A DNA stretch of 64,000 bases from Trebouxia sp. TZW2008 (Eukaryota; Chlorophyta; Trebouxiophyceae; Trebouxiales; Trebouxiaceae): assembly GCA_002118135.1 (NCBI GenBank), contig BDIU01000170.1:62001-126000 (forward strand). Direction: 5' to 3'. The position numbers and the translations under genes are program-made. A model generated the notes under the pieces. It was not told the origin of the DNA. It saw nothing but the letters and a program-made list of their open reading frames with translations, and did no database searches. Within the stretch, counting starts at the first letter, position 1. Each line of letters begins with the position of its first letter. Shown in pieces: positions 785 through 62,300 of the stretch.

Positions 785-3700
785 ATGGCGCTGCTGCTCA
801 GCAGAACGTCTTTCAGACCACTTGCCGCAAGCGTATGGCTTGGTAGGCCAAGCGTGACTTGCTTCCGAAACGCACGGAGTCCATCTCGGACCTTAGTTAC
901 TCGAGTGGCCCCTGCGTTGACCAACCTCAAACAGTGGCATTGCCAGCACCATACTCGTCTTGGTGCTCCTCAGCCCCGTCGCTATGCATCTGCATTTGCA
1001 GCAACCCAGGAAGTCGAGGCTTCAGCGGATACACGGCCTAAAGTGGTGTTTCTTGGCACGCCAGAGGTGATCAGTAGCTGCTGTCAACTTGCTGTCAGCC
1101 TCATAGTCCATGGACTCGACGCCCCTTGTAGGTGGCTGCAGATGTTCTATTCAGGCTTCTTAAAGCATGTCAACAGCCCAGTACAAAGTTTCAGGTGGAC
1201 TATACGCTCCACACTGCTGCTAGACTTGTTCACAAAACAGGTCGACAATGACATCTCAATTTTGTGACAAGCAAGTTTCGGGTGTCATGTAGATAGCAGC
1301 AGTAGTTAGCCAGCCAGGCACAGCGCGCAAGCCCACCAAAAGCGGCGCAGAAAGACCTCCACTACCTCACCCAGTCCAAGTGCTAGCAGAAGAATGGCTC
1401 CATCCGGATCGAGTGTTGATGCCAGAAAAGGCCTCAGATGTGCGCTTTCTGCTCCAATCCACCTACTGTCCTCTCACAGCTTTCCTGCATGACCATTGCA
1501 GAAGCCATCAGGGTGCAGGGGACTGATATCTTTTCATAGCTTTCTGCATGACCATTGCAAAAGCCGGCACGGAACAGGGGCTTGTTGTTCTTTCATGGCT
1601 TTCTGGATCTTTCTGCATGACCATTGCAGAATCTATCATCAGGATGCATGGGGACTCATGGCCGGCTAGCGTCTATTGTGGGCTTTTTGAAGCACGCAAG
1701 CAAATCAACTCATATATGTCTTTCTGGCTTGCCTGTCGTGAGTCAGACGCATGGCCCCTCGTCTCCTGTTTCGCATGACAAGACACTGATGAGTCAACGC
1801 ATTCTTGTGTACTGTGTGATCTTGCTTCACATGTTCAGGCACCATAACACCTGCTGCGTGTTGATTCCCATGCTAACTCCTGCTGTTTAAAATCTATGTA
1901 ACACCTGTGTAACACCTGTGCAACACCTATGTAATACCTGCATAACAGCTGTGTAACAGCCTGTGTTGCACTTGACGACATCAGTGAGTCAGGACGCCCT
2001 TGCATATAATGCGCTCCTGCATTATCTCCTCAGCAACTTTGTCACTTATTGAGATGTATGGTGTCCTCTGCAGAAGACTTTCGTAGATTCTCTTAAGGCC
2101 ATATAGCCAAACCTGTGCATCACAGCAGCATACAAAGAACAGTCGCTACTGAACTTAACTTTTACGTCCTAAATACTTCTTTATTGCCTGCAGAAAGCTT
2201 TCATAGATAGTCTCAAGGCTGTGCAGTCAGACCTGTACATCATAGCAGCATACAAAACAAGCTTGCAACAGAACCATATTCTGCCTTTCTGAACTTTCCA
2301 CTGTTGCCTGCAGATAGCTTTTCTGGATACTCTCAAAGCCATTCAGCCAGACCTGTGCATCACAGCAGCATATGGACAATTCTTGCCACAAAAGTTCCTG
2401 GATATTCCCAAATATGGCACTGTGAATATCCACCCAAGCCTCCTGCCCAGATACCGGGGAGCAGCCCCTGTACAAAGATCCCTACAGGTAAAGTCTGCAT
2501 GCCCATGCTGTTTCTGCATCACTGTCATCATCATCACCATCAGCCAGACCTGTGCATCACAGCAGCATATGGACAGTTGCTGCCACAGAAGTTCTTGAAT
2601 TTTCCCAAATATGGCACTGTATCCACCGAAGCCTCTTGCCAAAGATAGGAGTGTTGCTCCTGTTTAAAGAGCGCTTCAGGTAAAGTGTGCATGCCTATGC
2701 TGCTTCTTCTGTGTTTGGTCTACATTTTGCTCAGATCATGTTCCTATGTCAGTTGCAACAAAGAGCAAAACTTATTGGCCCCCAATGCTGCTTGGGAGCA
2801 CACCTTGCCTCTGGGCATGAGTACAATTCAGTTTCTATGCAGTTTATGTGAATTGCTGCAGAAGTACCCTGTTCATTGCTGCCCCTGGACGTCAGTCTGC
2901 CGTACCACCAACATCAGAAAGCGTAAAAGTGTTGCATGAGGCATTGTCACACCTCAAGCAGATTTGCACGTCGTGCAGAGCGGTAGAACTGGGATGGACA
3001 TACATCTTCTATGCATGGTCATGGCCATGGACGCAGGTCCAATCATTCTTCAAAGACCAGCATCATTGAACACTCCAGAAGCAGTCTGGGCAATACATGT
3101 GTTAAAACATCTGCATGCTGTGTAGCAATGCATATTGTGCTTATTGCTGCTGCTGAAAGCTGGTTTGCTTGTTGTGCAGAGCAGTGACAGTGAAGTGAGG
3201 AGGATGTCAGTCTTCTTCACAGGGTCAAGGCCATAGACTCAGCGCCTCAGACCAAAAACCAGCATCATCAAACATGCAAGAAGCGAATTGAGTGATACAT
3301 CTGCATGCTGTGTAGAAATGCATGTTGTGCTGATTGCCGCTGCTACTGAAAGCTGGCTTGCTTGTTGTGCAGAGCGGCAACATTGAGGTGGATGTCAGTC
3401 TGTTGTCCAGCCAGCAAGCAGAAGAAGAAGTACAACATGAAGAAGGCGAAGAGGAGGAGTGCAGAAGTCACCATATTGACCCCATTTTTTTGTATGTTTG
3501 GGTTGTTGAGAGCTGCCTTTGCTGAAAGAAGTTTTGCTAGTTGTGCAGAGCGGTGATAGTGAGGTGGGTGTCAGTCTGTTGTACACTGAGAAAGCCATGG
3601 ACTCAGGGCCAATCATTGCTCAAGAGGCTGTCCAGATTGACGCTGGCATTCAAGCAGATGAGCTGCTGCTGCACCTGTTCGCTGTGGGCACACAGTGAGT

Positions 3701-6500
3701 TTTATCTTTAGATTGCCGCATCATTTGGTAGCAATGGCTTGCATGGCACATCCAGCCATGTTTGACTGTAGGCAAACTACCCAGCTGATGCTGGCATTCA
3801 AGCAGATGAGCTGCTGCTGCTGCACATGTTTGCGATTGGCGCAAAGTGAGTCATGTTCAGACTGCCGATCAATTTGATTCCATTCAAGTCATTCACTCAC
3901 TCACTCACTCACTCACTCACTCACTCACTCACTCACTCACTCACTCACTCACTCTTTCAGTGTGCTAGACAGGCTCAGCAGGCCCAGCTAGGTACGTACT
4001 GGAGCCAGCAACTGTCTCTAATCAGATTGATTTGATTGCGACGGCTTGCTTGGCACATCCAGTCTTATGAGACTGTGGGCAAAAACCCTGTGTCTTAAAT
4101 CTTGACTTGCACGACCCATGACTGTTGGCACATAATGAGTGACCAACAGGCCCCTTTGAAACAGGTTGTACGGCAGCATGCAGCTGCTGTTGGTGTTACA
4201 GTGACTTCTTTTTGTAAGGACTGCTCTGGTTCCCAAGAAATTGTTACTCCTACTACTTATTGAAGCAGAAGGCACTGTACAAGCATACCTCAGTGACATG
4301 AAGCACATCTTGTGTCTATGCCTATAAGTCAGGCAGGAAGGTGGCAGCATGGCGTTCACACAAATGCATGTCAAATTCTGGCATATATTGTAACATCTTT
4401 AGCAATGCAAAGAGGCTTACGACACATGTGTAGAGACAGACAAGTACAACATCTCACACTTAATCACCCTTTTCTTGGCTTGCTCCATCTGTACAATGCA
4501 AATTCGCTGCACAGGCTGGCAAAGTGAGCTCAATGCGTGAAAAATTGTGCATACTGTCCGTGGGAAGCAAATTGATGTGTTTTTAACATCATCACTGGTA
4601 AAGAAGAGTCTAATTTTGCAGAAAGGAAATTGCTGTGTTTTCTGCGCAAAGGCATACTCTTCTTTACCTTGTGGCTTGAACAAGTTTGTTGCAGCTGCTC
4701 CTCTGTAATGCATAATTTCCCTAACCTACTCTAGTGTATTGGCACAATGTTGCAACAAGCTTGTCATGACATTCTATGTGCAAATCATGCTGCAGTACAT
4801 TGCATCAGCAATGCAGCGAATAACAATACAGAACACTCAATACACAACATGTAATATGCAGTGTTTGAAAATGTGTGTCACCAAGATGTAGTGCAGATCG
4901 TGAAGTACATTGGGGCCCACACGTAATACCCAATACGCAAGAAGAAGACTTCACAGTCTCAATCACTGAAGTTGAGTGTTTGGTGATTCACTGCAATACT
5001 GTTTACACTGCAGGCTATTTCTGGATCATGCAAAGTCCATCTTGTCGGGTGAAGCTCAGCACACTGCAAAGCCGCAAGACAGCAAGCATGCCACACATGC
5101 ACCCAAAATTGAGAAGTCAGAGAGCCTATTGGACTGGGACTTGTCCGCGACTGCCCTTCACAATCAGGTACAGTGGCTTGTCTTTGCAATGGCTGCTTTC
5201 ATTACCAAGAGAGTTGTCCTTACAACGTAATGTCCTTACTCAGAGGTTCCAGCCCCTCTGAGGCGCCCCCCCCCCCCCACCCCCCCCCCCCCNNTCCACC
5301 CCCCCTGAGGCGCCCCCCCCCCCCCACCACCTCTCACCCTGCAGTCAGAATGAAGTGATTGGTTCACATCGGCACTGTCCATACATCAAGAATGTCTTTG
5401 TTTCGGAATGTCCTTCAAAAGAGAAGTTGCTGTACAGAAATGGTGACTTTAGCGTGAGCTTGCAATCATATGCTGTGACTGTTGATAGCAACATGAGATG
5501 AGTCAGCACTGAGTCATCAAACAGTGTCCAGTCCTGAAGGCGGCAAAACGCCTTACAGACTTGTGCACGACACCTAGCATATTGCACAGCTTGCAAAACC
5601 CACAAGGCAGCGCAGATAAGGTTGTGTCGCAGTTTGAGACTCAAAGGTCACTTAGGCATGGCAGCATGCATTAAATCACCTAGCATCAATGCATAGCTTG
5701 CAAAACCAGCAAGGCAACGTAGTCATGGTTGTGTCGCATGTTGGGACTCAACGGTCACTTGGGCATGACAGCTTTTGTTAAACCACCTAGCATCAATGCA
5801 CAGCTTGCAAAACCAGCAAGGTGGCGCAAACAAGGTTACAACTGAGCAACGCGTCAGCGTTCCAAGGTTGTGTCGCAGTCCAAAACTCAAAGGTCACTTG
5901 GGCATGAGAGCATCTGTGACACCACTCACACCTTTGTTGCAGTTTGCGAGTGTCTGCGCAACAACAGCAGTCAACTGCTGCACAACTGGGTACCATTGCT
6001 TTTAATTGTGCAGAAAATGGAGACAGTTAGTTGCTCCAGTACTTACCTAGCTGTGCCTGCTTGAGCCTGTCTAGCACACATTTAGAATGAACAAATGAAT
6101 GAATGTACAGTGGTGTTGCATGCTGCAAAGGAATGAGAACAGGCTGTGCACTTTGTAGGTGAGGGCTTTTGCACCATGGCCAGGCACTAAACAAACATTC
6201 TTGCTGTCAAAAAACAATTCGCCCAAAACAAAGCCGGTTTCAATGAACCTCAAGATTCTGAAAACGACTGTTGGGAAGGCTGATGATTGGCAAGGAGAGG
6301 AAGAGACAGACATCACAGTGACCCGGGATGCTCTGCATGTCAAGTGTACAGATGATACTGTGCTTAGTATACTGCAGTTGCAGACACCTGGCAAGAAACC
6401 TGTCTCTGTTCTGTCATTTGCAAATGGCTCCTTGCAGGACTCGACAATCTCACGGACACATATGCCAGCGCCTAAAGATGCATCTGAAGGCCAGACGTGA
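785..6500 (+). CDS. FMT: Methionyl-tRNA formyltransferase, organellar
   Basis: It formylates Met-tRNA using 10-formyl-THF to start plastid and/or mitochondrial translation. Seven exons close in phase: 785-1073, 1142-1194, 1293-1439, 2314-2487, 3549-3694, 5014-5167, 6159-6500, giving about 434 residues. The start is the first ATG of an Arg/Ser/Ala-rich transit peptide of about 80 residues. Then come the Rossmann start KVVFLGTPEV (exon 1), DLCITAAYGQFLP and the catalytic NIHPSLLPRYRG loop (exon 4), and AMDSGPIIAQEA with the conserved Asp (exon 5). Exon 6 has the linker ending SATALHNQ. Exon 7 starts the C-terminal tRNA-binding domain with VRAFAPWPGT. Introns 3-6 carry echo copies of exons 4 and 5 and two dispersed repeats. 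Exon 2 uses a donor inferred from phase. The last about 20 residues are uncertain, because another frame gives a more basic, FMT-like tail ending at 6519. Confidence 0.9.
1445..1985 (+). repeat. Tandem repeats in FMT intron 3
   Basis: At 1480-1650 a unit of about 65 bp containing CTTTCTGCATGACCATTGCA recurs three times. At about 1885-1985 an 11-mer-like unit (AACACCTGTGT and variants) repeats at least six times. Neither matches an exon. They appear to be intron-internal minisatellite growth. Confidence 0.75.
2070..2700 (+). repeat. Echo copies of FMT exon 4
   Basis: Real exon 4 is 2314-2487. Partial copies start near 2073 and 2192, each with a TGCAG acceptor and the bases for the QPDLCITAAY stretch, interrupted by stops. 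A downstream copy at about 2530-2695 repeats most of the exon and its GTAAAG donor, plus intron sequence (GCATGCCCATGCTG versus GCATGCCTATGCTG). Only the 2314 copy keeps the whole frame. Confidence 0.88.
2925..3860 (+). repeat. Echo copies of FMT exon 5
   Basis: Three decayed copies of the exon 5 acceptor and 5' part (GTGCAGAGCGGTGATAGTGAG in the real exon at 3549) start near 2973, 3175 and 3368. A downstream copy of the exon 3' end and donor lies at about 3785-3855 (GGCATTCAAGCAGATGAGCT in both). A further worn piece is near 4040-4090. The copies carry frameshifts or stops. Confidence 0.88.
3892..3955 (+). repeat. (TCAC)n microsatellite
   Basis: About 15 perfect TCAC/ACTC units lie directly 5' of a dispersed repeat core at 3961. 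The other copies of that core also sit beside tetranucleotide repeats. Confidence 0.97.
3961..4030 (+). mobile_element. Short dispersed intronic element, copy 1
   Basis: The core contains GTGCTAGACAGGCTCAGCAG, then GCCCAGCTAGGTACGTACTG, then AACTGTCTC. Related copies are at 6016-6110, 8128-8205 and 46495-46595. No ORF, clear terminal inverted repeat or pol III box was recognised. A SINE- or MITE-like non-autonomous element is the best guess. It lies in FMT intron 5. Confidence 0.6.
5263..5332. other. Poly-C tracts with two ambiguous bases
   Basis: Runs of 10-15 C flank NN at about 5293-5294 in FMT intron 6, with CTGAGGCG on both sides. This is probably a low-quality or collapsed homopolymer site, so the local length is unreliable. 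Confidence 0.95.
5570..5915 (+). repeat. Tandem repeat of about 110 bp, three copies
   Basis: Three copies share CACCTAGCAT, CACAGCTTGCAAAACC, a GTTGTGTCGCA segment and GACTCAAAGGTCACTTGGGC. All lie in FMT intron 6. No matching exon was found, so this is an intron-internal tandem duplication. Confidence 0.85.
6016..6110 (-). mobile_element. Short dispersed intronic element, copy 2
   Basis: The reverse complement reads CATTCATTCATTTG, GTGTGCTAGACAGGCTC, CACAGCTAGGTAAGTACTGG, then ACTGTCTCC, matching copy 1 and again next to TCAT repeats. It lies in FMT intron 6, antisense to the gene. Confidence 0.6.
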
Positions 6501-7591: not shown

Positions 7592-10500
7592 GTTAAAGAA
7601 GAGTGGCTGTAGTTGCCACTGGTGAGTAATGGCAAGCTGCAGCTATTTCCACTTAATTAGCAGAAGGGCGTTCAGGAAGCATTTGATGAATGCTGAGTAT
7701 GAACATGCACAGACTTACACATCAAAATAGAGTGTAAATCTAGTTGCAACCAGAGAGTGACGTCAGGCTGCAGCTGTTCCTACTCAGTCAGCAGAAGAAA
7801 TCCAGGAAGCATAAAGCAAGTATGCTTCCTGCATTTTTTCTGCTGACTGAGTAGAAATAGCCTGCAGTATGACCATGCACTGACTGACGTCTTGAAACAA
7901 GGTATAGATGTAGCTGCAGTTGGCGAGTAACAGCAAGCTGCGGCTTTGTCTGCTCAGTTACCAGAAGGGCGTCCAGAAAGCACTTGATGAATGCTAAATA
8001 TGAACATGGACTGACTTACGTATCAACATAGGGTACAACTGCATTTGCAACCAACAAGTACTAGCTAGCTGCAGCTGTGTTTACTCACCTAGCATAGGGC
8101 ATCCAGATAACGCATAGCGTGATGCATATTCATTCATCCATTCCAGACATGTGCTAGACAGGCCCAGCTAGGTATGTACTGGAGCAATCGACTGTCTCCC
8201 AACAGTTTGGTCCTGTGCTACCCTAAACCATGTGAACTGTGCATGAAGGGAGGTGGGGTTCTTATGATGAAAGTGATGCATATGCAATGACTTACGTATC
8301 AAAACAGGGTAGATGTAGTTGCAGCCTGTGGTTTGGGCCAGGGCCGCCAGCGCTGCAAGGGATGATATGCCACTACCAGTTGAGGGTCCTTTCTCTAGAG
8401 CTTCGTACAGTGACTCTCCAGCTCCCGCAACCTGTGAAGAAGGCGCTACTGGATCAAGTGAAACAGTGACGACCAAATCTGTAAAAAACAGACATGCCAT
8501 GTCTGGCTGGGCTCCTGTCTTAGGCAGTCAGCAAGAGCATGTCCAGTCCGTCCTGTAATCTTTCAAAAAGGTGACCCAAGCAGGGGGCTGTGCAGTAAAA
8601 GCTGCAAGGAACAACATGCCCTTGCGAGTTGATCAGCTTTTTCCAGTGCCTAATGCAGTGACTTTTCAGCTTACACTGCCTGTATCACAACATGCATGCA
8701 GTTTGCTTCCTCAAGGGCTGAGCGGTCAAGACTCACGCTGAACACATCTGACACAAGCCGCACAAGGTCTTCAGAAGAGGCCCCCTTCAAATTGGATAGA
8801 GGCGGCACTAAAAGGCACGTCTCATCAAGTTTGGCAGGATCTTACCTTGTATGAGGCTGAAGCTCCTGCACCCGCTACAGCTTGGGAAACAACAGTCTGA
8901 TAAGACTGTGTGGCAGCAGCTTGAGCCGTGGCATCTTCACCAGAATACAGGATCTGTGCTTGGGCCAGACAGGTAAGGGTGTTATTGGATGGGGAGAAGG
9001 TGGCGATGGAAGTCGCCAGCGCTGTGTTGTCCCCTGTTGTGGCCTGTAGAGCTGTCTGGGCAGCTGCAGCAGCACACAGAAAGGTCAGATCATCTTCTGG
9101 GCAGCAGCCAAATCAGCAAGATTACTCCACAAATGAAGGCAGACACGGTCTTGGTCAACAGGGCTTGTCAACTGATGAGCTAGGCTTACTTGCAAGCACC
9201 TTGAGGGCGATTTCAGAGCACAGGGCTGATGCAACGGGCAGCCCATCAGTAGTGACCCTCAGACCCGTAGTCAGGTGAATGGTGTAGACAGCTGTTCCAC
9301 GAGCAATGTTGATGGACAAATGAAAGTGGGCTCAAGCTTGATCAGCAGTGCTTACAAACAAATCAGCAGGGCTTACAGATTTATCAGCAGACCTCACTTG
9401 CACGCACCTTGAGTCAATCATGAGAGCACCCAGCTGAAATCAAGGGCAGACCGCTGGCGGTGGCCACCACACATCTAACCAGATTGATGTTATGGGCAGC
9501 AGCTAATTCAGCAAGACTCATACGCGAATGAATGCATACTCGGTTCTGATTGGCAGGGCTTGCAGACTGAAGCAGCAGGGCTTACTTGCAAGCACCTTAA
9601 GGGCATTTCCAGAGCACCCAGCTGAAACCAAGGGCAGCCCACTGGCAGTGGCCACCACACAGCCAGCCAAGTTGATGTTATGGGCAGAAGCCAAAGCCAA
9701 CCCAGCAGCAGTCTGGTTGGTATCTATCACTTGTCCAAGCGCCAAAGCATATTGAGCAGCTAGGAATGTGCCGTTGTTGCAGGTGCCACCTCCAAGCCTC
9801 TCAGCCGTGCCTGTGGCCACAGCTGCGTGCTCTGCCAGCCCTGACACAAAAGCGGTGGCAAAGACTGTCTGTGGACAAACGGAGAGCAGTCAGTCTCACG
9901 GCGGCTTGCAAATCTGCTATGACTACGTAGTCATACATGTCCTGTACACCATATTTGTACACTGTCTTTCAATGATGATCTGGCGTCTGTGATGATGAAA
10001 CATCATACAGCCACTCCTGCGTGCTCTGCCAGCCCAAACGCAAAAGCGGTGGCAAAGTCAGTCTGCAGGCAAATGCAGGGTAGTCAGTCTCTCGGCAGCT
10101 TGCAAATCTGCTATGACCACTGTCTGTGAATGATGATCTGGTGTCTGTAGACCATCACATGGCTGCTGCTGCCTGCTCTGCCAGCTCTGATGCCAAAAAT
10201 GGCAAAGACTGTCTGCGGGCACATGGAGGACAGTCAGTCTCACGGCAGCTTGCAAATCTGCTATGACTACTGTCTGTGAATGATGATCTGGTGTCTGTAG
10301 ACCATCATATGGCTGCTGCTGCCTGATCTGCCAGCCCTTACGCAAAAGCGTTGGCAAAGACTGTATGCATGCAAACAAGAGGCGTTGATACCAGTGCAGC
10401 TGGTAGACCTGCTGTGGATGCTGTCTGCATGAAAAAAGGCAATGACCACAAGTGCAGCTTGCAGATCTGCTTTGTATGCTATCTGCATGCAAGATAGGAA

Positions 10501-12415: not shown

Positions 12416-12453
12416 TCAGTTGATGCGGCCTGGGGTGCTTCTTGGGCTGTGGA

Positions 12454-24352: not shown

Positions 24353-24774
24353 GTGTGAGCGGTCTCAGAGATATTTGATGCCCAAATGACCTTTTAGTCT
24401 CAAAGCTGGACTTGCTGCTTTGGCTTGGTCAGCTTGATGCCTCACAACGCCTCGAGCAACATCATACAGTGCCGCAGAGGCGTATTTATACAGGCATATA
24501 AGTAAAAGCTGCATTAGCATTGGCAAGCAATTGGAATGATCCATTTTGGTTGGCAGGGCTGCAGGAAACAGCATTGATGCATGTGCAATTCTGTACGCAT
24601 ATCCATTTTCAAAACTTTCTGGTCGGTGCACATTAGGAAGTCTGACTTCCAGAGCACCAATGAAGTCAACTCTGTGTGCATGTCAGGCTTTGAACACAGT
24701 GGGCACTGGCACTGTTCTGCTGAAGCAATGTCAAGATGTTGCAGCCCTTGCGAAGTCCACATTGCACTGAACAC

Positions 24775-25430
24775 CTGGAATTGTCCGCCTTGTGCAAAGG
24801 TAGTACTGGCAATTGGCGGCAGGCCAGTTGGCAATGCCCCAAAGGACAGTTGCAACTCAGGCGTATCTTGATTAGGCAAGGTCAAAGCCTTTTGCTTATG
24901 GTACTGTCAACTTTCATCTGCTTACCTTGAATTGCACGCCTTGGGCAAAGGTAGTATTGTCAATTGGCAGCAGGGCAGCTGGGACTGCCCCGAGGGCAGG
25001 GGGTAGAGTGCAGTGAATGTCTCCGCCTGAGCTTTCAGCTTGAGTCTCCCTCAAGTCTTCTTGTAGCTTCAACTGCACAGCCAGCATTCACTTATTCTCA
25101 AACCTCAGCACCCATGCTGAAGGGGCCAGAATGCAATGAATATGGCTGCCAGCACATTTAGCTTGGAATGCCTCCAGGTTCCTTGCAGCTTCAACTGCAC
25201 AGCCAGCATTCATTTGTTCTCAAGTCTCAGCACACATGCTGAAGGAGCCAGAATGAAGTGAACGTGGCCGCCAGCACTTTCAGCTTGAACGTTTCTCAAA
25301 GCTTTTTTCAGCTTCAACTGCATAGCTGGCAATGACTCACTACACAAGGTATCAGCAGACATGCCAGGGGTGCAAAATGTCAAGTCAAGCCTTTCTGTGC
25401 AGTCTGCAAACGCATGTTGTGGTAAAGCCA
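24775..25430 (-). repeat. Echoes of FAM185A-like exon 25072-24926
   Basis: Upstream (right) copies at about 25130-25205 and 25235-25320 repeat the acceptor AACTGCACAGCCAGC and the AES(S/A)GG block. One downstream copy at about 24770-24835 repeats the PIxxTTFAQGxQF end followed by GTGTTC. The copies contain stops. Confidence 0.85.
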
Positions 25431-42519: not shown

Positions 42520-42543
42520 AACAGACCGCTTAACAATCCCATC

Positions 42544-44097: not shown

Positions 44098-47000
44098 TCA
44101 TGTCAGGGCATAGTCTGTTCTGACCAGCTGCAGTCTTTGCTGCACATATTGCTTGTGGGCATTGTCTGCATCTGGCGCCTTCACGTGTTCCTGAGCCTCA
44201 TGCTGATCTGCTTCATCAAATGTCATCAGTACTAGGTTATCAATGCTAGCTGGCTTTGATGCTTCCCACCTGAAAGCACATAGCTGCCAGCAATTAGACA
44301 CAGCTTGCAGTCTCCTTCATGTGATGTGTAACCTCTCAGGCTGCTTGTACTCACGGCTGTCCCTGTTTTGATGCCTGAAAACGTAGGGTGTCATTTCTGT
44401 TTTTAACATACAGCAAAAGCGAAGGCAGCAGAATTGCAGAACTTGACATCAGCAATGACCTTTGAGGATTGAATACATATGAGGCTAGCTCTGTTAATGA
44501 GACAACAGACATAACTAAGGCCCCTGGTACCTGGTCAAGACCAAGTTTGCAGTAGACCGGTTGAAGCCCCTTTGCAGGCCAGGTTCCTGCACCCCTAGAG
44601 CGTGTGAACTGATCCCCCGCCACACGTCCCGAATCAGATACACCACCTGCAGCAGAGACAGCAGCACAGACGTGACATCAGATCCAAAGTCGGTCTAAAG
44701 CACAGGAGACACACTTTGCAGGAGACAGTACAACTGCCACAAAGCTGTAGAAAAGAAGGCACAAACCACTTACTGCAACAGCCAAGGTCTCACTGCTAGA
44801 TTGCAAATCAGCAGCATGTCAGCTGATGTTGTCAGCAGTCGACTCATAAACTTGGCACAATCTGAACAGCTGTGTGCTTGCACTACTCATGTCGTCACAA
44901 TGCTGCACATGGACCTTTTCCAGGATATTGCAATGCCATGACCCTTACATCACTGTAGTCAACAGCCACAGCATCTGTGCTGCCAAATTTGGCTTCTTCG
45001 CGCTCCAGCAGCCGAGACATCTGAGTCTCATACTGCACTCCTGTGATCTCCATCACAGGCTCGGGATTGAAGGGCTGTTCAGCCAAGTGACACAAGATGT
45101 GGCTAGCAGCAGCCATGCCAAACATGGCTGGCATAGTACCCAGCACTGGCACAATGCCTACTCTGAAACCAGGCACTATCTGCAGCAGCATGCAATGGGT
45201 CACAATCGTGAGTGAGTGCTACACCACAGGGTCTTGGTTGCAGGGTTATTGCGCCAAGTAACATGAGATGTGACTAGCAGCAGCCATGCCAAACATGGCT
45301 GGCATAGTACGCAGCACTGGCACAATGCCCACCCTGAAACCAGGCACTATCTGCAGCAACACGTAGTACAGTCATGAAAACAGCTGAGCGCTTCACCACA
45401 GACTCCTGGTTGTAGGGCTGTTGAGCCGATTGACACAAGATGCGACTAGCAGCAGCCACGCCAAACATGGCTGGCATAGTAGCCAGCACTGGCACAATGC
45501 CCACCCTGAAACCAGGCACTACCTGCAGCAATGCACATGACAATAGTCAGCTTTCTGTGGCAGAGGCACAGGATGTGATTGGCAGCAGCCAAGGCAAAGT
45601 TTGCCGGCATAGTTCCCAGCACTGGCATAATGCCGACTCTGAAACCACGCACTATCTGCAGTATGAGTCTTATGTGAGCTGATCTCATTGAAGCAGCGCA
45701 TTCTGCATGGTCATTGCATTCTGGCAATGTCTGCAGCAATGTGCATTACAGTTGTGACCGTAGCTGAGCTTTGCATTGCAGTGACATGAGATGTGACTAG
45801 CAGCAGCCATACCAAACATGGCCGGCATAGTACCAAGCACTGGCACAATGCCCACTCTGAACCCAGGGACTATCTGCAGTATGATGCAATACATTCACAT
45901 TCATGAGTAAGTGCCACCTCCCCTCACACGCTACTATGCCAGCAATGTTCAGCATGGCTGCTGCCCTTTTCATCTTGTGTCATTTGGCACAACAGCTCTT
46001 CAACCCCAACCAAGCCGTGGCACAAAGCCCGGTTTAAAAGCAGGCACTGTTTACAGCAACAGGAGGTACAGCCACGACAATAGCCGAGCGCTGTACCACA
46101 GGGTCTCGGTTGTAGGGCTGTTTAGCCAAGTGATACAAGATGTGACTAGTAGCAGCCATGCCAAAAATTGCTGTTATAATTTGACATGCTGATACACTGC
46201 CTGCTCTGAAAGCAGGCACTATCTGCAGCAACATGTAATGCAGCTGTTACCATAGTTTAGCGCTTTGTTGCAGTGGCACAAGGTGTGATTGGCAGCAGCC
46301 GTGCAAAACATTGCTGGCATGTTATTGAGTCCTGGCACAATGCCTGCTCTCAACACAGGCGATATGGGCATCAGCATGCAAAGTCATGCTGTCCTGCTGC
46401 TATGGCACGCTGGATTTTGCTTTGATACTATGCTGCTGCTACGCTATGTCTGGCACTTCTGAGTTATGCAAATGGTTTAGGTTAGCACAGAACCAAATTG
46501 GTTGGAGACAGTTGACAGCTCCAGGATGTACCTAGCTGGGCCTGATGGGCTTGTCTAGCACATGTGTTCATATGAGATGAACATGCATGAGTGAGCCATG
46601 CAGACAGCATAGGCTTACTGCTATGGGGCACACATGCCTGTACTGCAAGATTGCGTTACAAGTCATACTGACATATGTGCAATGAGTACTTGACAGAGAA
46701 CATTTGTGCCATGTGTCTGGGTCACCTGATAGTCATGTGGGTTTTCAGTCAGAATCAGCTTCACACGCGGCTTCTCAAGGGACAGCAGCACTGGAATGCC
46801 ACTTGAGATGCCATGTTGCCGTCGTAATCGATACCTCACAGAGCGGGAAAGCTTGTCAGCGCTGCATTCAGCAATGTCTGCAATGCGCAACCTTGTTGGA
46901 TCAGCCCGAGAACCTGAATTGCACGTTTTGCATCAATTTCCTTTCCTGTTGCTTGATGTTACTGGCTCAGCATCTCAGCAGAGCTGCTGCAAGGCTGCAC

Positions 47001-50300: not shown

Positions 50301-53300
50301 CACCGCCAAGCGCCGCCTCCTTCATCCCCCCGCTCTCATTCTTGCTCTTCCTGAAGGAGCCTGACCCGTTTTCACCAGAGTCCTTGTCTGCTGCTGTAAC
50401 TTGTGTTGAACCTTGCGTGGTGTCCTTGCCTGCTTTGCCCTCTTGTGAGGCCAGCCGCTCGCTGACTGCCTTGAGGGAACGCAACAGGGAGGTGGTGTAG
50501 TGATCTTCAGTCATCTTTGGAGACACCAGCAGCCCCTGCAGCACTTTAACTTTGTTAGACAAAGCTCCTGACAATTTTTGAATGACAAATAGCTCTAGGC
50601 AAAAGAGGCTGACGCTCACTAACTGCCTTGAGAGACAGTGACAGGGAGGTGGTATAGTGATCCTCAGTCATCTTGGGTGAAACCAGCAGACCCTGCAGCA
50701 GTAAACTTGAAACACTCAAATGCATTGTTTCCAGACAAAATGGCCAGCTGCTCCTTGACTGCTTTGAGTGAGCGCAGCAAGGTGGTGGTGAAGTAGTCCT
50801 CAGTCATCTTGGGAGACACCAGCAGCCCCTGCAGTGGGGAGGTCACGAACCTCAGTTATAATTGCTGATGTAGCTAAACTGCTTTGCCTTGTTGTGAGGC
50901 CAGCAGCTCACTCAATGCTTTGAGAGATTGCAAAAGGAAGGTGATGCAGTTGTGCTCAGTCATCTTGAGTGAAATCATCAGCCCCTGCAGCAGTCAACGT
51001 GTAACACTCAGTTGCATTGCCTTTAGACAAAATGGCCAGCTGCTCATTGACTGTTTTGAGGGAGCGCAGCAGGGAGGTGGTGTAGCGGTCCTCAGTCATC
51101 TTCAGAGACACCAGCAGTGTCTGCATTGATAGAGTCACTGAGCTCCATTGCAATTGCTGATCTAGCTAGGCTGCGTAGCCCTCTTGTGAGGCCAGCTCTT
51201 GTCATCCAAAGCTTCTACTCCACATCATTGTGTAAACAATATTCACCTACATTGGCCAGCCACTCGCTGACTGCCTTGAAAGATTGTAAGAAGGTGGTAG
51301 TGCAGTGATCCTCAGTCATCATGGGTGACACCAGCAGCCCCTGCAGCAGTGGGACTTGGGCAGACAAAGCTCCTGATTTCCTGAACTACAGTGGTGCGTA
51401 GACAGAACAGCCAGCCGCTCACTGTCTGCTTTGAGGGAGCGTAACAGGGAGGTGGTGTAGTAGTCAGCTTTGGAGACATCAGCAGTCTGTAAAGCAGACA
51501 AGCTCATGCTGACCTTGATTGCTGCAAGACAACAGGCAAGCTGTAAGACAGGTGATGAGGAGTGGTCCTGAGACGAATTAGGAGTGACCAGTAGCCCCTG
51601 CAGCAGTCAAAAGAAGAACCAAGCTGCATACTTAAGCGAACACCACATGTGCAACACTGCAAACTTGATGGACGTTTACATAGACTGACTTTCCGCTTTT
51701 TCCTGTCACTGATGCTAGCCTGCTTTTGTCCAAGACAGCAATCAAGCTGTAAGGCAAATATGTTGTTGCTGATGCCAAAGTATCTGGCTTCCAACCATTG
51801 TTTGGCATGTACAAATCTCAGCAGTTAGCTCAAAGACACTCTGCGACATGTTGTCAAGGACTGGTCAGCAGAGAAGCAACCTAGTGTTGTGTGACGCTGG
51901 TACTGTGCATGCTGGCAAGCTACAAGTCAATCCCTGCAGCAATAGCGATTCGTGAGTGGCGCGACCAGCTTACACGTTTGCAGCTTGAGTAAACTCTCTT
52001 TGTAGCGACTGCTTTCGTTACCAACAAGACAATTGTGCAGCACAAGAGCTAAACACAAAGCAGGCAATCTAGGAGATGACACAGTTGTTTTTTGGCGGTC
52101 ATCAAAACACGGTATCTCACCTCTCTGATGATATCTTCGGGCTCAATCCAGACAGCATCCCAGAACAAGTCTGTGGGGTTGACTAAGCTTTCATGCAGAG
52201 TCTTCTTCTTATGCCTCCTGTGCTTGTATTGCTTCAGATTCCAGGTGGATCCAGAATCCATGTCATTCTCAGTTGGCCTCTTGGGCTTCTGCAGCCCAGC
52301 CTGCCGGTAGTACTCTTCATCTTCTTCCTCTGCCTGTTGCAACAGCTGATCCCGATCAGGCTGACTGTACTGCCGCAGATCATCGCTGCATTCAGGTGCT
52401 TGATGCTGAGGATGATCACGCGCCTGATCTTGATGATTCTGCTGATCAAGGTCATGATCCAGGGCATCATCAGGGGCAGACTGCTGACTATGCTGATGCG
52501 CTTGATCTGGGGCATGTGACAGCTGATGGGGCTGCTGCACCTGCCCTAGTCTCTGCCCTTGGCCCTGAGCTTGTGACGGCTGCTGGGGCTGTTCGACCTG
52601 CCCTGAACTCTGCCCTTGACCCTGAGCATTTGACGGCTGCTGGGGCGATTGCAACTGCCCTTGCTCTTGGCCTTTAGCATGTGACAGCTGCTGAGCCTGC
52701 CGAGCATGCTGAGCAAGACCATCAGGCTGATTGCTACTGAATGTATGCCTGTCATGGTCTTGCTCCTGGCCTGAGTTCAACAAGCCTTTTGTCTGGTGGT
52801 CATCCTGCATGTGAAGCAGTGAACGGCGCTGATGATGAGGGAGCGCTGGATGCTGATGCTGCTGTTCATTCAGACCAGCAGGCTGCTGTTGCCATTCCTG
52901 CTGGCCATCAGGGCTGGTGGCGGTGCCCTGAGGGCTGCTCCAGGAAGCCCCAGTAGCCTGCTGATCTGACCTGTGTGGCTGTTTTGAATGCTCATCATGA
53001 CTCATCCCCGCTTGCTGATGTGCACTGCCATGCTGGTCAGGTTGCACACTGTTCTCAGAATGCTCTTGGTGACTCGACGCATTTCCAGTATGTTGCTGGA
53101 CGCCAGGCAAACGCTGACTATCCCTTTGGTGGTTGCATGCCTTGGTGTCATGTTCATGGTGATGTGACGCCTCATCACCAGAGCTGCCAGACAGCTTCCG
53201 CTTGAGCTTGCCGAGTACTGAGTCATCTCCAGAGCTGTCAGAGTCACTGCTGGTGAGCCGTTTCAGACCCGCCAGGCTGCTGTTGGGGGTCTTAGGCAGG

Positions 53301-56300
53301 AAGCTGTGGGCCCTACGGCGATGCTGTTCCTGCTTGAGGGGCGAGGCGTTTGGGGATGCTTTGAAGCGGCGGAGGTACATGACACGCCCGGGAGGGACCA
53401 TGTCTTGGGCGCTCACATCTGTCAGAGTGCACTCCTGAAATCTGCAGGGCAGAAGCAGGCATCAGTAAATAAGCAAGTTCTTTTGAGAAGGTCAGCTGCT
53501 GTATGCAGGATGTATGATGGAGCCTGGGAGAAGCATGCCTTGGGCGCTCACATCTGTCTGAATACACTCATGAAACCTGCAGGAAAGCATCAAGCATGTG
53601 CAGTATCACACAAAGTGCAGATAAACCCTGTTTGGCCTGTCAATTTTTCTGCTGACATGAGGCAGTTGTTACCAAGCCATTGTCAAGGCCTTTGTACTGG
53701 ACATGTTGTATGACACCAACTAGCAGGAGGCATGCATAGATTTCAGAAGACCTCTCTAGCCTTCTGTGCAGCTGTTCTTGTCAGGACACCTTTTGCAACT
53801 CACAGTGCAGCACTTGACCGGACAAGCTTAGGGCTCTTCTTTGGAAAAGGTTAACAGCACAGCAGGATGAACAAACATGCACAACTCTCAATTCTCTGCC
53901 TAGCTCCTGTGACCAGAGGTTTCCGCAAAGCCTGCTCACAACTTGACATGGCAGCAACAGCGTCTTTCTGCAACAAGGTAGACTGTATTGTGTGCAGGAT
54001 ACAGACGCACGCATACCACTCCACCATCTGCCTAGCTTCTGACACCAAATTCTTCAGTAAAGGCTGCTCTTGACGCAAGTTGCAGAACTTGACGGGGTGG
54101 GCGTTGGCATCTTTTGGCAATAAGACCAAAAGCATCGTGTGCAAGACAAGAAGGCACGCCCACCTCTCCAGCATCTGCCTAGCTTCCTGAGGCATCTCAT
54201 CCAGAGTCCTGAAGAGATCCTTGTCAAAGAACCTGCGCCTGTTGACTTTCCCATACGATCCCCAGAAGATTTGAAACGCATTCAGCCTGCTGCACGCTAG
54301 CGCCATTAGCTTTCCCTCCATGAAGCGGTTCAAATTTTTCAAACTCATTCTGGGGATGCAGTCCTTGTTGACCACCACGCTGGTGCAAAAGGGCTTCATT
54401 GCATGAGCCATGTTGGGGGTCAGCAAACCCCCCGGGGGGCAGTAAGCCCAGCACTTGACTTCCGGAAAGCGGTCTTTCAGCTTGAGGGCTATGAGGGCTG
54501 CTGCACCTGCCCCGAGACTGTGCCCTGCACGCCAAGTGAAAATGTGATTGTCAGGCCTGATTTGTTGAGACCAGAGGCTGGAACAGGGTATAAAAAGCAA
54601 CACTGGTAGCTCAAGGGCTGATGTTGCTGCTGTATCTGCTCCCAGACTTGACTTGAGCCTCGCACAAGGCGTTTGAGCCAAAGGGCTATGAGGACTGCTG
54701 CATCTGGCCCTAGGCTGTGCATTGCATGCCAATTTTGATATGCGTACAAGGTCTGTTCTGTCACCATAGCAGGCATATGTTTGTATGTGAGTGCATTTGG
54801 CGCGCAGGCGCTGACACTTGACAAAAGCACATCTAACAGCATGGACCGCAAAGCAGGACTTTGCAATCTGTGGACACTGTGTTTTCAAGCCTGTTTTTGT
54901 GCTCAGCAAAGTCAATCGGCCTGAAGCAGCAAATCATGAATTATGCACAGAGAAGTCTGCAGATGGCTATGGCGCTTTGACAACTCAGGTGCAGGCACAA
55001 AACCCTCAGTGCTGTTTGACAAATTCAGTACACAGACAACCAAAATTATAGCAAGCCGTCTGGCAGCGGCATGCCATGTTTGCAACAGTGTTTGTGTGCA
55101 GTCCGGGCAAGAAAACCAGAGATGAAGGCGCAATACAAGTCAGAAATACAGAGTACACAGAAAAGGGCAGAGAAGCAAGGTGACTGTACCCAGGATCACA
55201 AGCTTCTCAACGTTGTATCTCGCATGTAGTGAAACGATGAAGACACAAAAGGATAAGGAGCAAGAAAAAGAGGCAAAGTGGGTGCACCTGTGATGACCAG
55301 CTTCCAGCCCTCCTTGTTGAGCCCTCTCATGATGATTTCAGATGCATACTCATTGCGTGTGGCGCTGTCCTTGCTCTCCTCAGTCTCATCCTCCTCGCTG
55401 ACAGACACCTGGAAAACCAAGAGGGTCACTCGGTAATTCCTCACCGATTGAGGGTCACAAACCCATGTTGCTCAATGCATGGTCATCAAAGCTTAGTCTG
55501 GCGTTACAAACATTTGACATTCGCAAACATGAAGCGGTGTCAAAAGTTTCTGCCAAGACTCAAACTTCTTCCAACAGCAAGAATGTTGTTGAATCAAGAC
55601 ATGCTGGTGAGCCCTGCAGTACTAGATGCAGCTTTGCAAACTTTTCACATACAATGAACGCAGAACGCTCACAGAATGCAGCAGGAAGTGTAATGAGGCT
55701 TGCAGCAAAGGGTATGTTTCAAGACTCACCTTCCTGCCAACAGCCTTCTCAGGGTTTTTGGCGCCATACTCGGACACTCGGTCATTCCCTGGGGCGTTGG
55801 AGGCACCTGACGATGTAATCTTATGCCTGTCAAGGTGGCGTGACGCATTTCCCGCCTGACGGTCAAGATGCTGCTGCTCCTCTGCCTCTTTTGACGAGTC
55901 TTTGGCGCCACGTCCTGCCATCAAGGCAAGAGCAGCTGCCATTTTCCCGCCTCTGCTGTAAAGATACTGCATGGGACCAGTGGTGTTGCGGCTCAAACTC
56001 CCGCCAGAAGTTGAGGAGCGCTTGAGCTCCCGCTCAGCCTCCTTCATTTCTTCTTCTGGAGGCGTGGAAGTAGAAGACAAGGCAGCCGCTGCAGCTCCCT
56101 CCATGCTGGATGAACTTCCTGATGGATTTCCTGGATTAGTCGCGGCACCCCTGACCACCTTTCTGACCTTGTCCCAGCCTCTCAGATCGGATGACTCATC
56201 AGCGCTGCTCTGATGATTGACTCCCGCTGCTGACTCATGCAATGCTGCTGACTCATGCGATGCAGAATCCTGGCCAGGTTGCTGAGATTCTGAAGCAGCA

Positions 56301-59300
56301 TTTTGATTCCTGATCCTGTGGCGCCTTTTCCTTCCAGAGCTTCTAGCAATACCGCCAGGGCTTTTGGGAGGGGTGTTTCCAGCAGCCCCTGCACTCCTCT
56401 CAGCAAGCAGCTGCCGCTTCAGCTGTTTCGCTGAGCGATGGCCACCGCCGAGTATGTGGCCAATGGTCTGCTGTGGGACGTCTTGTAGGGTTTCAACCCA
56501 GGCATGCAAACCCTTGCCAACCATCATCAGGGGGTTAGACTTCTGTTGCTGCGGCTTTGGCTTGCCTCTGGGAGAGCGCAATGATGGATGTTTGGGTGAA
56601 TGTTCATGGAAACCTGCTGAGCACCAGCACGTACAGTGACCATCCTCTATCAAACTGCTTAGCAAGCAAATGGTCCTTACATTGAATTGCTCCTGTTCAG
56701 CTATACCACTGCAGTTGAATGCATTGGCTGATTTCCAGTTGCTCTGTCCTTGCAACAAGAATGTCCTTATACAAAGTATGGCTATTGGGAGGAATACACC
56801 ACCATCAGTGACTCAGGTCAAGTAGCTGAGCAGGACATCAAATGGTGAAAGGCTGCATTTCAAGATGGCTGAGACAGTTGTGATGAGGGGTGGTGGCATC
56901 CTTCTCTGACGTGTCCTAGCATATGCTCTGCATAACTCTGCCAAATGGGAAACATCCATTGTGACCTGGTGAGCACAACCACATACGATAGAGAGAAGCT
57001 GCATTTCAACTGACTGGGAAAGACGTACAACAGTCAGGAAGGACACGAACCAGATGGATGAAAGATGTCACAGGCAGTAGTTGCAATCTTGCCCAACATG
57101 TTCAAGCACATGCTCTGCCTGTTCCAAGCTCACATTCCAGACATGTATGACCACCTATCTCGAGCTGGGTGTTGGTACAGCTGAAGCATGGGCGTAGGTG
57201 AACAGGCTCACCTTGATCTACAGGGGCAACAGGCTCATCCCTGTGGTGGGGACCTGGGTGCTCATCATACCTCACTGGCAATGGCAACTGAAAGATGCTG
57301 ATGAGCAATGTGTGATACATAACATATGATATGTGTGCAATTGAGAGACTTTGATTTGCGTGCCAGCTGAACTTGATCTGTAGGAGTGACAGGCTCATCC
57401 TTGTGGTAGGGCCTTTGGTGCTCATGGCACCTTTCTAGCAAGCGCAAGGATGATGATGCTAAATATGTTGTCATATGTAACAGGTGACATAGTCACAAGT
57501 CAGTCATGTTTAATTCTGGTTAGGCTGACCTTGGTCTACAGGGGCGACAGGCTCATCCTTGTGGTGGGGCCCCGGGTGCTCATGAGGGGCAGGTAGGCGC
57601 TGGTCCTCAGGCATTGGGGCAGGGTCATCATCAGGGCCGTATGCCTCATCAAACCCATCCTGCCCATCTGCAATTGAGCATGTATACAATGAGACAGACA
57701 CACCATCAGACAGACAGGCACACAGCCTGAGCAGGCGCTGGTTCTCAGGAGTGGGGGCAGGGTCATCATCAGGGCCGTATGCCTCAGCAAATCCATCTTG
57801 CCCGTCTGCAATGAGGCAGATACACACTCAGAAAGACAGACAGACAGGCAGCCCCTAGGTGAGACTGGGGTGATCACCAGGGCCATACGCCTCGTCAAAC
57901 CCATCTGCAATGCAGCACATACACCATCAGATAGACAGACAGACTGTCAGACAAACAGGCTGGTGAGTGCTGGATCTCAGGGGTGGGGCGGGGTCAGCGT
58001 TAGGGCCATACGCCTCATCAAAGCCATCTTGCTTGTCTGCAAGACGCCACACTCATGAGGACAGACAAGCAGACAAACACAAACGCACAGACAGACAGGC
58101 GCTTATACAGATGGACAGACAGGCAGTCAGCAGAAACAGCTACTGCCATCTTGTGCACATGCAGACACTGTTCCCAACCAACAGCTGAAGCCTGTTGCAT
58201 CACCTCAGTTCTCAAGGTATGATAGCAATTCACCTGCTCCAATGTCATACTCAGGGTTATCATCATCCTCAGAGTCTGAGATATTGAGCAGGGAGGGCAG
58301 GATGCGGTGGCCCCGCAAGTCCTTCCAGATAGCAGTAGCTGCTGCCATGATGCCTGCGTGCGCTCTTCTAGGGCCCTGCTCTATGCACTCCTCCTCATCC
58401 TGCATTGACATGAACATGACAGCATCAATACCTGCCCAAATTTGTCTGAATAGCATGCTATACACATAGTCAAAAGCTTTGCAGTGACCTCTGAAGTCCT
58501 TGCAGATGGCTGTGGCAGCTGCCATGATGCCTGCATGCGCAACCCTAGGCCCAACTGTTCAAAAAGTGAAGCATGTGGTCTATGAGGGCCGTGCTCTATG
58601 TACTCCTCATTTTGCAGCATGACATCGGTGACAGCAACACATGTTGCTCATCCACAGTCAATAGGTCAAAGCAGGGTTGCGCCTGTGTGCTGCTCCTGTA
58701 GAATATGCAAGCGTTTAAGACACCACAAAAGGCATGCTGACCGCATTGACAACTCACAGGACAGCTCCCCATAAGTATGTGTTGAAGCTAACCTGGGTGA
58801 AGGTGTCAGGAAGCCACTCCTCCATGGGTTCAGGGTCCGCCAGCATGTCAGTTGCCAGGTCAGCCACTGACACAGTGCCTCTGATGGACAGCACCACACT
58901 CTTGGTGGGCCTATCCAAGGCTAGCATGTAGGGTAGGTCACCTACATCAATAATTATTGCATTTGCTGACAGACCAAATGTAAGCACTGAAATTATCCCT
59001 GTGCACACATTGCTGTGACACTGTGGGGCAGTACCAGATTCTTGGTGGGCTGATCCAAGGCTAGCATGCAAGGCAAGTCACCTGCACATCACAATAATGG
59101 TGAATAAGTATATGTGACCAGAAAGCAAGTCAAAAGAGGTGTCAGGCAGTCACTCCTTTGTGGGTTCAGGGTCTGCCAGCATGTCAATTGCCAGGTCAGC
59201 CACTGACACAGCGCCTGTGATGGACCGCACCACACTCTTGGTGGGCCGGTTCAAGGCCACAATATATGGCAACTGGCTTTGGCACAGCAGGTAAAAGCAG

Positions 59301-62300
59301 TGTTTGGCTGATCGTGTCGCTTGCAAAGCCACAGTGATGGTGCTTGTCCAACACCTTTGGTGCGGACTTCCAGAGCCTGTAGTCACCTGTACATTGCAAA
59401 AATGATGAATATGTATTCGACACCAGCATGTCAGGTGATTTATTGTGACAGGGAGCCACTCCTCCATGAAAAGAGGGTCAGCCAGCATGTTGGGTGCTAG
59501 GTCAACCACTGGCAAATGCTGCTCCAGGGTCACAATCATGGCACACTAAGAGTGTCCAGTCAAACTCACCTAGGGCTTGGTTGTCAAAGTTGAGGTACAG
59601 CAGGTCCTGATCCTCAATTTCAGCAATCTGAATGATGGCTTCATAGTCCAGATGCTGCTCCAGGGTCATAATCTTGCTGGCCATCAGCTTGTTGGCCTTG
59701 TAAGCATTCCTGCCCCGGTTCTTCAGCAGGTTATAAGTGTTTTTGGACTTCCTGCAAAGCATTGAGCCTTGATAAGTTCAAGCCAACAGCCTCTGCTGAT
59801 GATAGCAAGCATGCGAGCAACAGCTTTTGCACATACTACACGTGTAAGCAATTCGTTCATGGGCTTGCTTATGCATGATGTTACTGTTGGCATTACCATT
59901 GACCTGACATTTTTTGGATTGCATAGCAGGACCCCTGACAACTCCTCTCCAGCCGTGCAACATGCAGTCAAGAGTAGACCTTGGGAAGGCAGGTTGGTCA
60001 TCAAAGATGGACACTAAGTTTCTTAGTTTGAAAACCAACAGCTGAATGTTTCTGCGTCATACAATGCAGCAGAGGCAAGTCAAAGGGAACAGAGGTCAAC
60101 AGCAGATGGTTGAGGACATGTCATTAGGCAACACATGTCCTGTTTTATGTCCATGTGTTGGAAATAGAAACAATTCCTAGGCAATAACAGGGGTGCTTGC
60201 GAGGTCTGGTGGAGGTAATGGAAGGCAGCAGGTCAACAAGCAGCAATGGCTTTCTGCATCACGCAGCTACAGAAGCGCACTGCTTGTGACCTCTGGTGGA
60301 AGTACTGAAAGCCAGCGACTCCATAGGCAGCAGTGACTGTTTGCATGATGCAACAGCATACGTAAGCAGGCCAAAGGAACCAAAGCCCCCACTGAACAGC
60401 AGAGTAAGAATGCGCAGGGTGCTTACGAGGTCTGGTGCAGGTATTGAAAGCCAGCGGCTCCATAAGCAGCAATGGCATACTTGGCAAACCTGGCCGCCTC
60501 TGTCACCGCTGGCCTTGACACACGCTCCTTGTGACCTGCACACAACCAAAACAAACCCTCTGCATGTCATGATTGTTCAGCTATGACGCTGTTGAAGGAT
60601 TGATATAGAGGGAACAGTGACTATGCAGCCAAATATGGACTGAGCGCACCTGCAACCACCCTGGACACAACAATGCAGTTGTGATCTTGCAATTGTTATC
60701 TAAACAGCTTGATTCTTTTGGTCGTCAACGGGATTATTGCTTGCTGAATCAACTCGGCTTGCCAAGAAGCTCGAGGTATCAGCCCAGGACTAGTGATAGC
60801 CACCTGATAAAGAACAGCTGCAATGCTGAGGGTCTGCACTCAACAAGACATGCAAGCTTGCAGCCGATGCACAGGCAATGCTGTCTCTTGCCAATGTCAG
60901 CAGCAACAAGTGAAAAGCCCCATATGAGAGGTATGTACCTGTGTAGATGTCTGCCAGCTTGTCTGGCGGGATGTCAGGATCATACTCACAGGCGTAGGAG
61001 CTTGGTGACAACATGAAATCCCGCTGGAAAAACGTGTCCTGATTTAGGCGCCGGCGGGAAGACTGCCTACTGTGCTGCTGCTGCTGCTTGTCTTTGGCGG
61101 GGTCTATCTGATTGTCAGTACCGCAGTGTCCCTCCTCCATTTCCCGCATATGCTGTGCATCTGCCTTCCTGGCAGAAGCTGGTTGACTACGCCGCTGGGT
61201 TTTGGTGGGAGCCTGGGAATTTGAATGCACTGAGGAAGCTGAGTTGGAAGCCGGTGACTGATTCTGGTGCTGACCGTTCGGCATGTCAATCACATGGTGA
61301 CCTTGAGAAACTGCATGAGAAGCTGCTGGGGTCCCATGCGTGGATCTGTCCGGTGAGCCTGTGAGGCCTCTGTCATCTGCAGCATTAGGCGTATGAATCC
61401 TGCTGAGTGTATCTGCCATTGCTTCGTCCATTCTTTCTTCAGGATTATTCAAATCTGTGGCGTGTATGCTGCCATTCAGATTCCTGTGCTGATGCTGATG
61501 GTGCTTCCCGTTCATCTTCTGCCCCTCGGTTGCAGACTGTGAGTGGTGCGAATGGTGTCTGTCTGAGTGGGGGTGGGTGGTGGATGGGTGTCTTGAGGGG
61601 GCATGAGACGATGGGGGTGGGGGTGCTTTGTCGCTGTGAGATCCGGTCTTGTCAGCAATCTGCTGAGCACCTGGCATTTCCTCCCTATACTTGATCAGTG
61701 CCCTGCAGGCATGCATCCAATGTACAGAAAGAGCTAGCTCGCCATCTTGGCTTTGGATATGAGGCATCAGACAAAGCCAAGACTGCATCAGTGCTCTGCA
61801 GACATGCAACTTAATGTACATGACTGGCAAGTTGACATTGACTGTTTTGAGAATCAGGCTTTGCAAAAGATCAACCTCATCAGGTTTGCCTGGTCAAGAC
61901 CACAATTTCTGCAGAAACAGCATTCAACACATACTGGAGATTAGCAGTTTTGAACTGAGCTTGCTGCAAACTTTTGATTACAACCTGCTGCATAGCAGCA
62001 CAAGTCAATCTCTGATCAGATTTCCGAAGTGTTTTGTCAGGTAACATACCTGCGGATGTGCTCCTGGCGGGATTTACGCTGGGCAGCAGACAACAGGATG
62101 AGCGAGATGAACTCGTCAGAGGGGGAGAGGTCGGCCCCATGCAGTAGGCGTGAATACAACTCGGCCAGCCGCCCCAGAGGCCGCCGCCTGCACTCAAATT
62201 GCGCTTGAAGGTGATATGGCCACGTAAAAACAGATCACGACAACAACAACAACAGCAGCAACAATGAGAATTGTAACACCCAAAGCATGCAAAGAAACGT

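Follow-up and report, generated by a model that had tools for sequence, protein, structure and literature searches.

Why are exons in the long genes of a green alga flanked by worn pieces of themselves, and what have these pieces to do with the length of the introns that hold them? The question was raised by a 64,000-nucleotide stretch of the Trebouxia sp. TZW2008 genome (C163:62001-126000, hereafter the window; assembly of 68.5 Mb in 527 contigs, GC 49.7%), whose genes have their closest named protein relatives in Trebouxia. An earlier note on this stretch had described direct partial copies of exons, here called echoes, in the neighbouring introns. We compared the window with itself by BLAST, and at E<1e-4 the comparison gave 114 direct and 12 inverted pairs, with 109 of the 114 direct pairs less than 1 kb apart. 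At E<1e-3 and a lag below 1.5 kb, 121 self-matches were direct and 7 inverted, covering 22% of the bases, whereas two dinucleotide shuffles of the window gave none at the same thresholds. Depending on stringency, 17/60 or 21/83 called window exons had a direct local partner outside predicted exons, and 1 to 8 echoes were counted per exon. Because some of the exon calls in fact fall on echoes (e.g. 3373-3393 and 45397-45522), the earlier figure of at least 18 exons is confirmed as approximately right.

To test exon edges independently of the window's own weak gene models, 32 loci outside it (8 chaperonin, 4 aminoacyl-tRNA synthetase and 20 kinesin; 155 kb in total) were located with family profiles, the kinesin hits being fetched in part only. 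A small gene finder trained on the profile matches at these loci recovered 152/170 profile hits and missed 18; the splice signals that it returned were clean (donor CAG|GTAAG, acceptor TGCAG|GT). A near-complete protein could be read from 3 of the chaperonin genes, one of which matched CCT epsilon in many algae and plants. The results showed 227 direct and 5 inverted local matches in the 32 genes, and no local match when each locus was shuffled once; the copies are direct, local and arranged head to tail, as in internal tandem gene duplication. A direct partner within 3 kb was found for 50/166 homology-anchored exons, and a single inverted hit fell on these exons. Since the synthetase and first kinesin loci were chosen partly for wide spacing between profile hits, this fraction is not an unbiased genome rate. 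When three 10-kb stretches were picked by contig number alone, arrays lay on predicted exon edges in two of them. Repeat units measured about 70-200 nt (median 138), mostly at 65-95% identity, and near-identical arrays, which could be assembly errors, were rare (1/102 arrays 95-98% alike, 0/102 above 98%). Self-alignment against shuffled sequence thus bore out the earlier description of direct, worn, junction-spanning partial copies beside one intact exon, now in many genes. The core observation is real and reaches beyond the window.

The position of the copies relative to the splice junctions was determined for the 96 partner matches outside predicted exons; the 24 matches overlapping predicted exons were excluded, and several matches may represent one echo. 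Upstream of the exon, 41 of 50 matches crossed the acceptor and 9 ended inside the exon. Downstream, 31 of 46 crossed the donor, 11 stopped within 5 nt of it and 4 ended inside the exon, so that the near junction was crossed or reached in 83/96 matches, with 13/96 ending inside the exon. Tandem exon duplication also places direct exon copies in adjacent introns, and in this respect resembles the echoes, but it copies the entire exon with both splice sites and leaves it coding. The Trebouxia copies are partial and decaying, and 0/96 crossed the far junction and so spanned both, the test being confined to the same set without the 24 exon-overlapping matches.

The 32 outside genes held 110 non-redundant units, of which 74 (67%) touched one junction, 18 (16%) were noncoding only, 18 (16%) touched at least two edges and none lay inside exons. 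Placed randomly along their own loci, the same units fell into these classes in 58%, 33%, 7% and 2% of cases. The claim that the unit always crosses one junction was therefore too strong, and the one-junction rule requires no special mechanism, because chance placement already gives 58%. The excess of units touching at least two edges perhaps comes partly from mis-called exons, and the deficit of noncoding-only units is expected in part, since only one member of an exon-echo pair is free to decay and the pair can be recognised for longer.

We consider repeated local tandem duplication, with one-junction copies surviving as decaying intron, to be the best reading of these results and a highly probable one. 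Short segments of the observed size would duplicate head to tail at many sites in genes. If a segment spanned one junction, the product would retain one complete exon with its splice site (in the upstream copy for a donor, in the downstream copy for an acceptor), and splicing at this intact copy could leave the mRNA unchanged, the other copy turning into intron. Duplications that alter the mRNA, because they fall within an exon or take in all of it, would be discarded by selection, and those confined to an intron or spanning one junction would be retained; the partial exon left in the intron would then decay unconstrained, and recurrent events at the same edge would build arrays and lengthen the intron. 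The geometry fits single-junction tandem duplication because the copy contiguous with the remaining exon stays intact. Direct orientation, locality and one-junction geometry were observed as described above, as were the near-neutral decay of the copies and the link to intron length described below; from these we infer duplication at the DNA level, a selective filter and an initial tolerance by the spliceosome.

Templated copying would offer another route, in which a polymerase jumps between templates at short motifs common to both (TGCAG, GTAAG-like), so that an exon edge and its splice site are inserted into the intron. Similarity did frequently end 5-20 nt past the junction, and the TGCAG acceptor motif is strong in this genome, both of which would suit such a process. 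However, templated insertions are expected in both orientations, and the echoes of one edge often shared a common inner end (e.g. 69 nt in 3/4 echoes of L042 2776-2971). Some arrays repeated the whole unit including its intron part (e.g. L041, L058 and L066), although over adjacent pairs as a whole (n=60) the picture was mixed, with intron parts similar at z>2 in 30/60 and z>3 in 20/60. In single echoes the residual homology was weak, yet the flanks still resembled the real flank more than a control did (0.567 vs 0.523, p=3e-4). These findings make templated copying improbable as the source of the echoes, compared with tandem duplication of DNA.

The relation of the repeats to intron length was examined in the 99 introns with both neighbouring exons anchored. 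Intron length correlated with repeat-covered bases (Spearman 0.66), and the median length was 634 nt in introns with repeats and 327 nt in those without. Repeats were present in 1/7 introns below 150 nt, 1/22 of 150-300 nt, 5/29 of 300-450 nt, 8/16 of 450-600 nt, 15/19 of 600-800 nt and 6/6 above 800 nt. They made up 19% of all bases in the 99 introns, with a mean coverage of 29% in the 19 introns of 600-800 nt and 46% in the 6 above 800 nt; these values are lower bounds, as older copies drop below detection. The statement that arrays form most of the length of long introns went further than this detected share, but to call the process a mode of intron growth is fair, given the link to intron length and because the spread of identities means that the events are spread over time. 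The echoes may in this way serve as internal clocks for the local duplication rate. Long introns in genomes of modest transposon content are not well explained, and a simple rule, that a tandem duplication across one junction leaves the protein unaltered, goes together with repeats in 21/25 sampled introns above 600 nt. It would provide a neutral route from exon sequence to intron sequence.

We next consider the fate of the copies. The statistics on echo decay, splice dinucleotides, flanks, clocks and mosaics also take in window exons, not all of which are homology-anchored. Changes private to echoes were even over codon positions (186:192:220, p=0.19), whereas changes setting an exon apart from all its echoes fell mainly on third positions (12:9:49). 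Among echo gaps, 56/62 were not multiples of 3, and 31/3,056 echo codons were stops. Splice motifs are often present in echoes, which would suit a role as alternative or decoy exons or as splicing regulators under selection. The AG or GT was retained in 88/128 echoes against 84.3 expected from other echo dinucleotides (AG 52/75 vs 48.2; GT 36/53 vs 36.1), however. Recursive splicing at AG|GT was also considered; many echoes in the first alignments do not begin with GT. Preferential preservation of echo splice sites, suggested by first alignments with AG in 30/34 acceptors, was ruled out by an alignment independent of BLAST extension. The chaperonin predicted at L041 has a public counterpart of 539 aa at 97% identity, encoded on a 1,988-nt contig from a close relative or strain; in this protein the exon that ends at 2092 is joined to the one that starts at 2817, and the echo at 2583-2645 is omitted. 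In one echo of the window TCD exon (45784-45876), 7 of the 31 codons compared with the real exon had synonymous changes and 1 had a nonsynonymous change, as selection might produce; this echo was a single outlier among 128 echoes examined, and the other five TCD echoes had 6-19 nonsynonymous codon changes each, one of them with a stop. The even codon-position changes, the frame-breaking gaps, the unpreserved splice dinucleotides and the L041-like protein without its echo indicated that the echoes are mostly dead and decay near-neutrally, and a function for them is very unlikely. They also carry a warning for annotation, since they bear real-looking splice sites and reading frames, and some were taken for exons by the gene finder. 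At L057, positions 2868-3478 held an array of 166-nt units in which the gene finder took an early unit and the best profile hit fell on the last. At L056 (C489), 126-nt tandem repeats (a multiple of 3) at 845-1293, 94-97% identical, overlapped predicted kinesin exons.

Repeats lying in introns and at exon edges could also be a dispersed mobile sequence, introner-like or a transposon. Such insertions leave dispersed near-identical copies in unrelated genes, whereas each unit here comes from the exon beside it. One array, that of TCD, was compared as DNA with the whole 68.5 Mb and gave 7 matches, all at its own locus, in a search that ignores very common words. A mobile origin is on these grounds hardly credible. 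The TCD search also returned five minus-strand matches within the locus (45054-46400; 66-76 nt, 77-82%); the exon-derived TCD segment is partly palindromic and may be the source of some of the inverted pairs in the window. Inverted pairs are otherwise rare, one being the inverted repeat of 84% identity in a chaperonin gene (L034 1548-1725 / 2006-2185).

Several results weigh against the reading by tandem duplication. The density of echoes was uneven, in that the 8 chaperonin loci held just 6 of the 50 echo-bearing anchored exons, and L067 had no array. The exon four-fold clock (0.195) ran 1.5 times the echo clock (0.128; 95% 1.24-1.92), so that the echoes may be under mild constraint or bias. 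Most directly, the intron-derived half was often barely recognisable where the exon-derived half was 85-95% alike (r = -0.05, 112 pairs). A simulation of joint decay with few indels gave flanks of 0.69-0.76 at exon halves of 0.82-0.87, whereas the observed flanks stood at 0.57-0.61 at any exon identity. Among the 46 echoes at least 85% alike, 25 lost similarity within -10 to +20 nt of the junction and 1 at +20 to +100; in 14 the similarity ran past +100, and in 6 it stopped inside the exon. Neither these ends nor these flanks are predicted by plain tandem duplication with few indels. When heavy intron indels were simulated (0.15-0.3 per substitution, T=0.2 per copy), flank identity was 0.56-0.62, near the observed 0.57-0.59, and heavy intron indels could thus yield the average flank identity under tandem duplication. 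Because the echo and exon four-fold clocks agree within about 1.5-fold, the exon halves appear to be really young rather than strongly constrained.

Tandem duplication may therefore need an extension, in which the exon held by selection is a master whose sequence passes to its echoes through short-range gene conversion. We think this plausible, if somewhat short of an even chance, and give the same weight to its second part, that conversion tracts stop where homology stops, at the splice site or an old duplication breakpoint, so that exon parts would be refreshed and intron parts would drift. The ages of the two halves are decoupled, as conversion would make them, and all echo-echo matches of at least 78% (14/59) ended +3 to +24 nt from the dead junction. 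In 6/6 echo pairs with intron flanks at least 0.72 alike, the exon part of one echo was nearer the real exon than its sister, in conflict with the flanks, which were nearer each other than the real flank in 5/6. The best case was L058, whose second echo had an exon part at 0.95 to the real exon and 0.80 to its sister, and an intron part at 0.60 to the real flank and 0.90 to the sister. In four arrays of L066 and L068, with exons from the gene finder only, farther echoes were 0.86-0.92 alike in the exon part and had unrelated-looking flanks. Mismatches were clumped at p<0.05 in 10/103 echoes, with 5.2 expected, an excess that points the same way but is small (p=0.03). On the other side, the heavy-indel simulation comes near the observed flanks without conversion, and echoes tend to appear nearer a static real exon, which weakens the sister-pair comparison. 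Farthest and inner echoes did not differ in flank identity (p=0.68), and a loss of flank similarity confined to the farthest echo is not general. A comparison with flank decay set at exactly double the rate of the exon-echo pair (0.663 observed, 0.672 predicted) was uninformative, as unrelated flanks scored 0.612 in the same alignment. With slightly more reserve still, we propose exon-anchored concerted evolution, each selected exon edge being a fixed master that rewrites its own dead flanking copies by homology-limited conversion. If so, echoes would outlast the remainder of the duplicated unit, introns would keep a running record of past exon sequence, and intron sequence would be shaped by the adjoining exons.

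That introns can be gained through tandem duplication is accepted (PMC3443670). In a potato RdRp gene, a tandem duplication across an intron-exon boundary created a new intron (PeerJ 2016, PMC4974935); this was a single event in one gene, whereas the Trebouxia genes sampled have many local copies that lengthened existing introns. Other tandem duplications inside genes, known via citing papers, are like the echoes a source of intron sequence, but as cited there they contained entire introns or made new ones, and the Trebouxia copies are partial exons that persist in the intron as they decay. Tandem duplication of AGGT segments as a source of introns (Rogers 1989; Hellsten 2011; as summarised in PMC3443670 and PMC4974935) likewise turns exon-derived sequence into intron, and predicts that the echo junction lies at the splice site of the opposite exon. 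Such coincidence was found in only 1/110 echoes (L058 2712-2822), and intron creation at AGGT was rejected as the explanation. That exception (C251) is a 74-nt predicted intron with a length equal to the repeat lag and the echo junction exactly at the upstream donor; it may have arisen as an intron through tandem duplication, or may be a repeat within an exon that was wrongly called as intron. A literature search, whose coverage takes in few subscription papers, returned no report of the exon-edge echo pattern in Trebouxia or other algae, and the passages of the Trebouxia A48 (PMC12712428) and Asterochloris genome papers found with intron and tandem terms hold nothing on such echoes. Internal duplication is thus known as a kind; what appears new, in the literature searched, is how dense it is here, how it bears on the length of existing introns and that exons may refresh the copies.

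In the window, Pfam or PDB supported the FMT, ferritin, pentapeptide, lipase (DAGL-type) and TCD genes. The FAM185A-like label is weaker (DUF4097 at 19.0 bits, below the cut-off of 22.9), and a Pfam scan of the gene labelled secreted or TIC-like gave no hit. On the plus strand, the intact FMT exon at 2314-2487 (Formyl_trans_N, PF00551 on the spliced prediction; exon call) had two acceptor-side echoes at 2068-2252 with lags of 240 and 120 (72-82% self-matches with the AG aligned) and a donor-side echo at 2540-2707 with a lag of 197, matching at 83% to 28 nt past the donor. By self-matches, a second FMT exon (3549-3694, plus strand) had two upstream acceptor-side echoes (lags 176 and 369) and one donor-side echo (3786-3874). 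A C-rich run containing two N letters lies in the FMT region at 5266-5305.

The remaining arrays are on the minus strand. Self-matches placed acceptor-side echoes of the predicted secreted/TIC-like exon (9586-9868) up to 10375 and donor-side echoes from 9092. The predicted FAM185A-like exons at 24926-25072, 26313-26736 and 27141-27297 (exon calls) were flanked by echo arrays over 24773-27807, also from self-matches. A further FAM185A-like exon at 29738-29853, with a start set by eye from the sequence where the gene finder had 29738-29876, had about seven donor-side echoes (array 28783-29665, unit about 129 nt) and an acceptor-side echo at 29937-29997. The intact TCD exon (44949-45179) was identified by tblastn with three Trebouxia-like TCD proteins (79 aa, 83.5-84.8% identity), and its six acceptor-side echoes lie at 45222-45353, 45391-45525, 45566-45658, 45784-45876, 46091-46225 and 46276-46365. 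The TCD protein was 71% identical to that of Trebouxia sp. C0009 and 70% to that of Trebouxia sp. C0006. Self-matches further revealed about six acceptor-side echoes (50536-51495) of a predicted exon between the DAGL and TCD cores (50304-50535). In the DAGL region they showed one echo on either side of a predicted exon at 54164-54524 (together 53987-54732), donor-side and acceptor-side echoes of another at 57530-57805 (together 57204-58075), and upstream echoes of predicted exons at 58234-58399 and 58793-58998 whose similarity ends inside the exon (together 58234-59514).

In contrast to several neighbouring genes, the pentapeptide exons and the 11 predicted ferritin exons had no echo, the ferritin exons giving no self-match in the window comparison. 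The ferritin exons, from exon calls, belong to a divergent, head-to-head gene pair about 275 bp apart (32348-36820). The plus-strand ferritin agreed at 100% identity with a public protein of 270 aa across 99% of the query, and matched proteins of Trebouxia sp. C0010 and C0005 at 75%.

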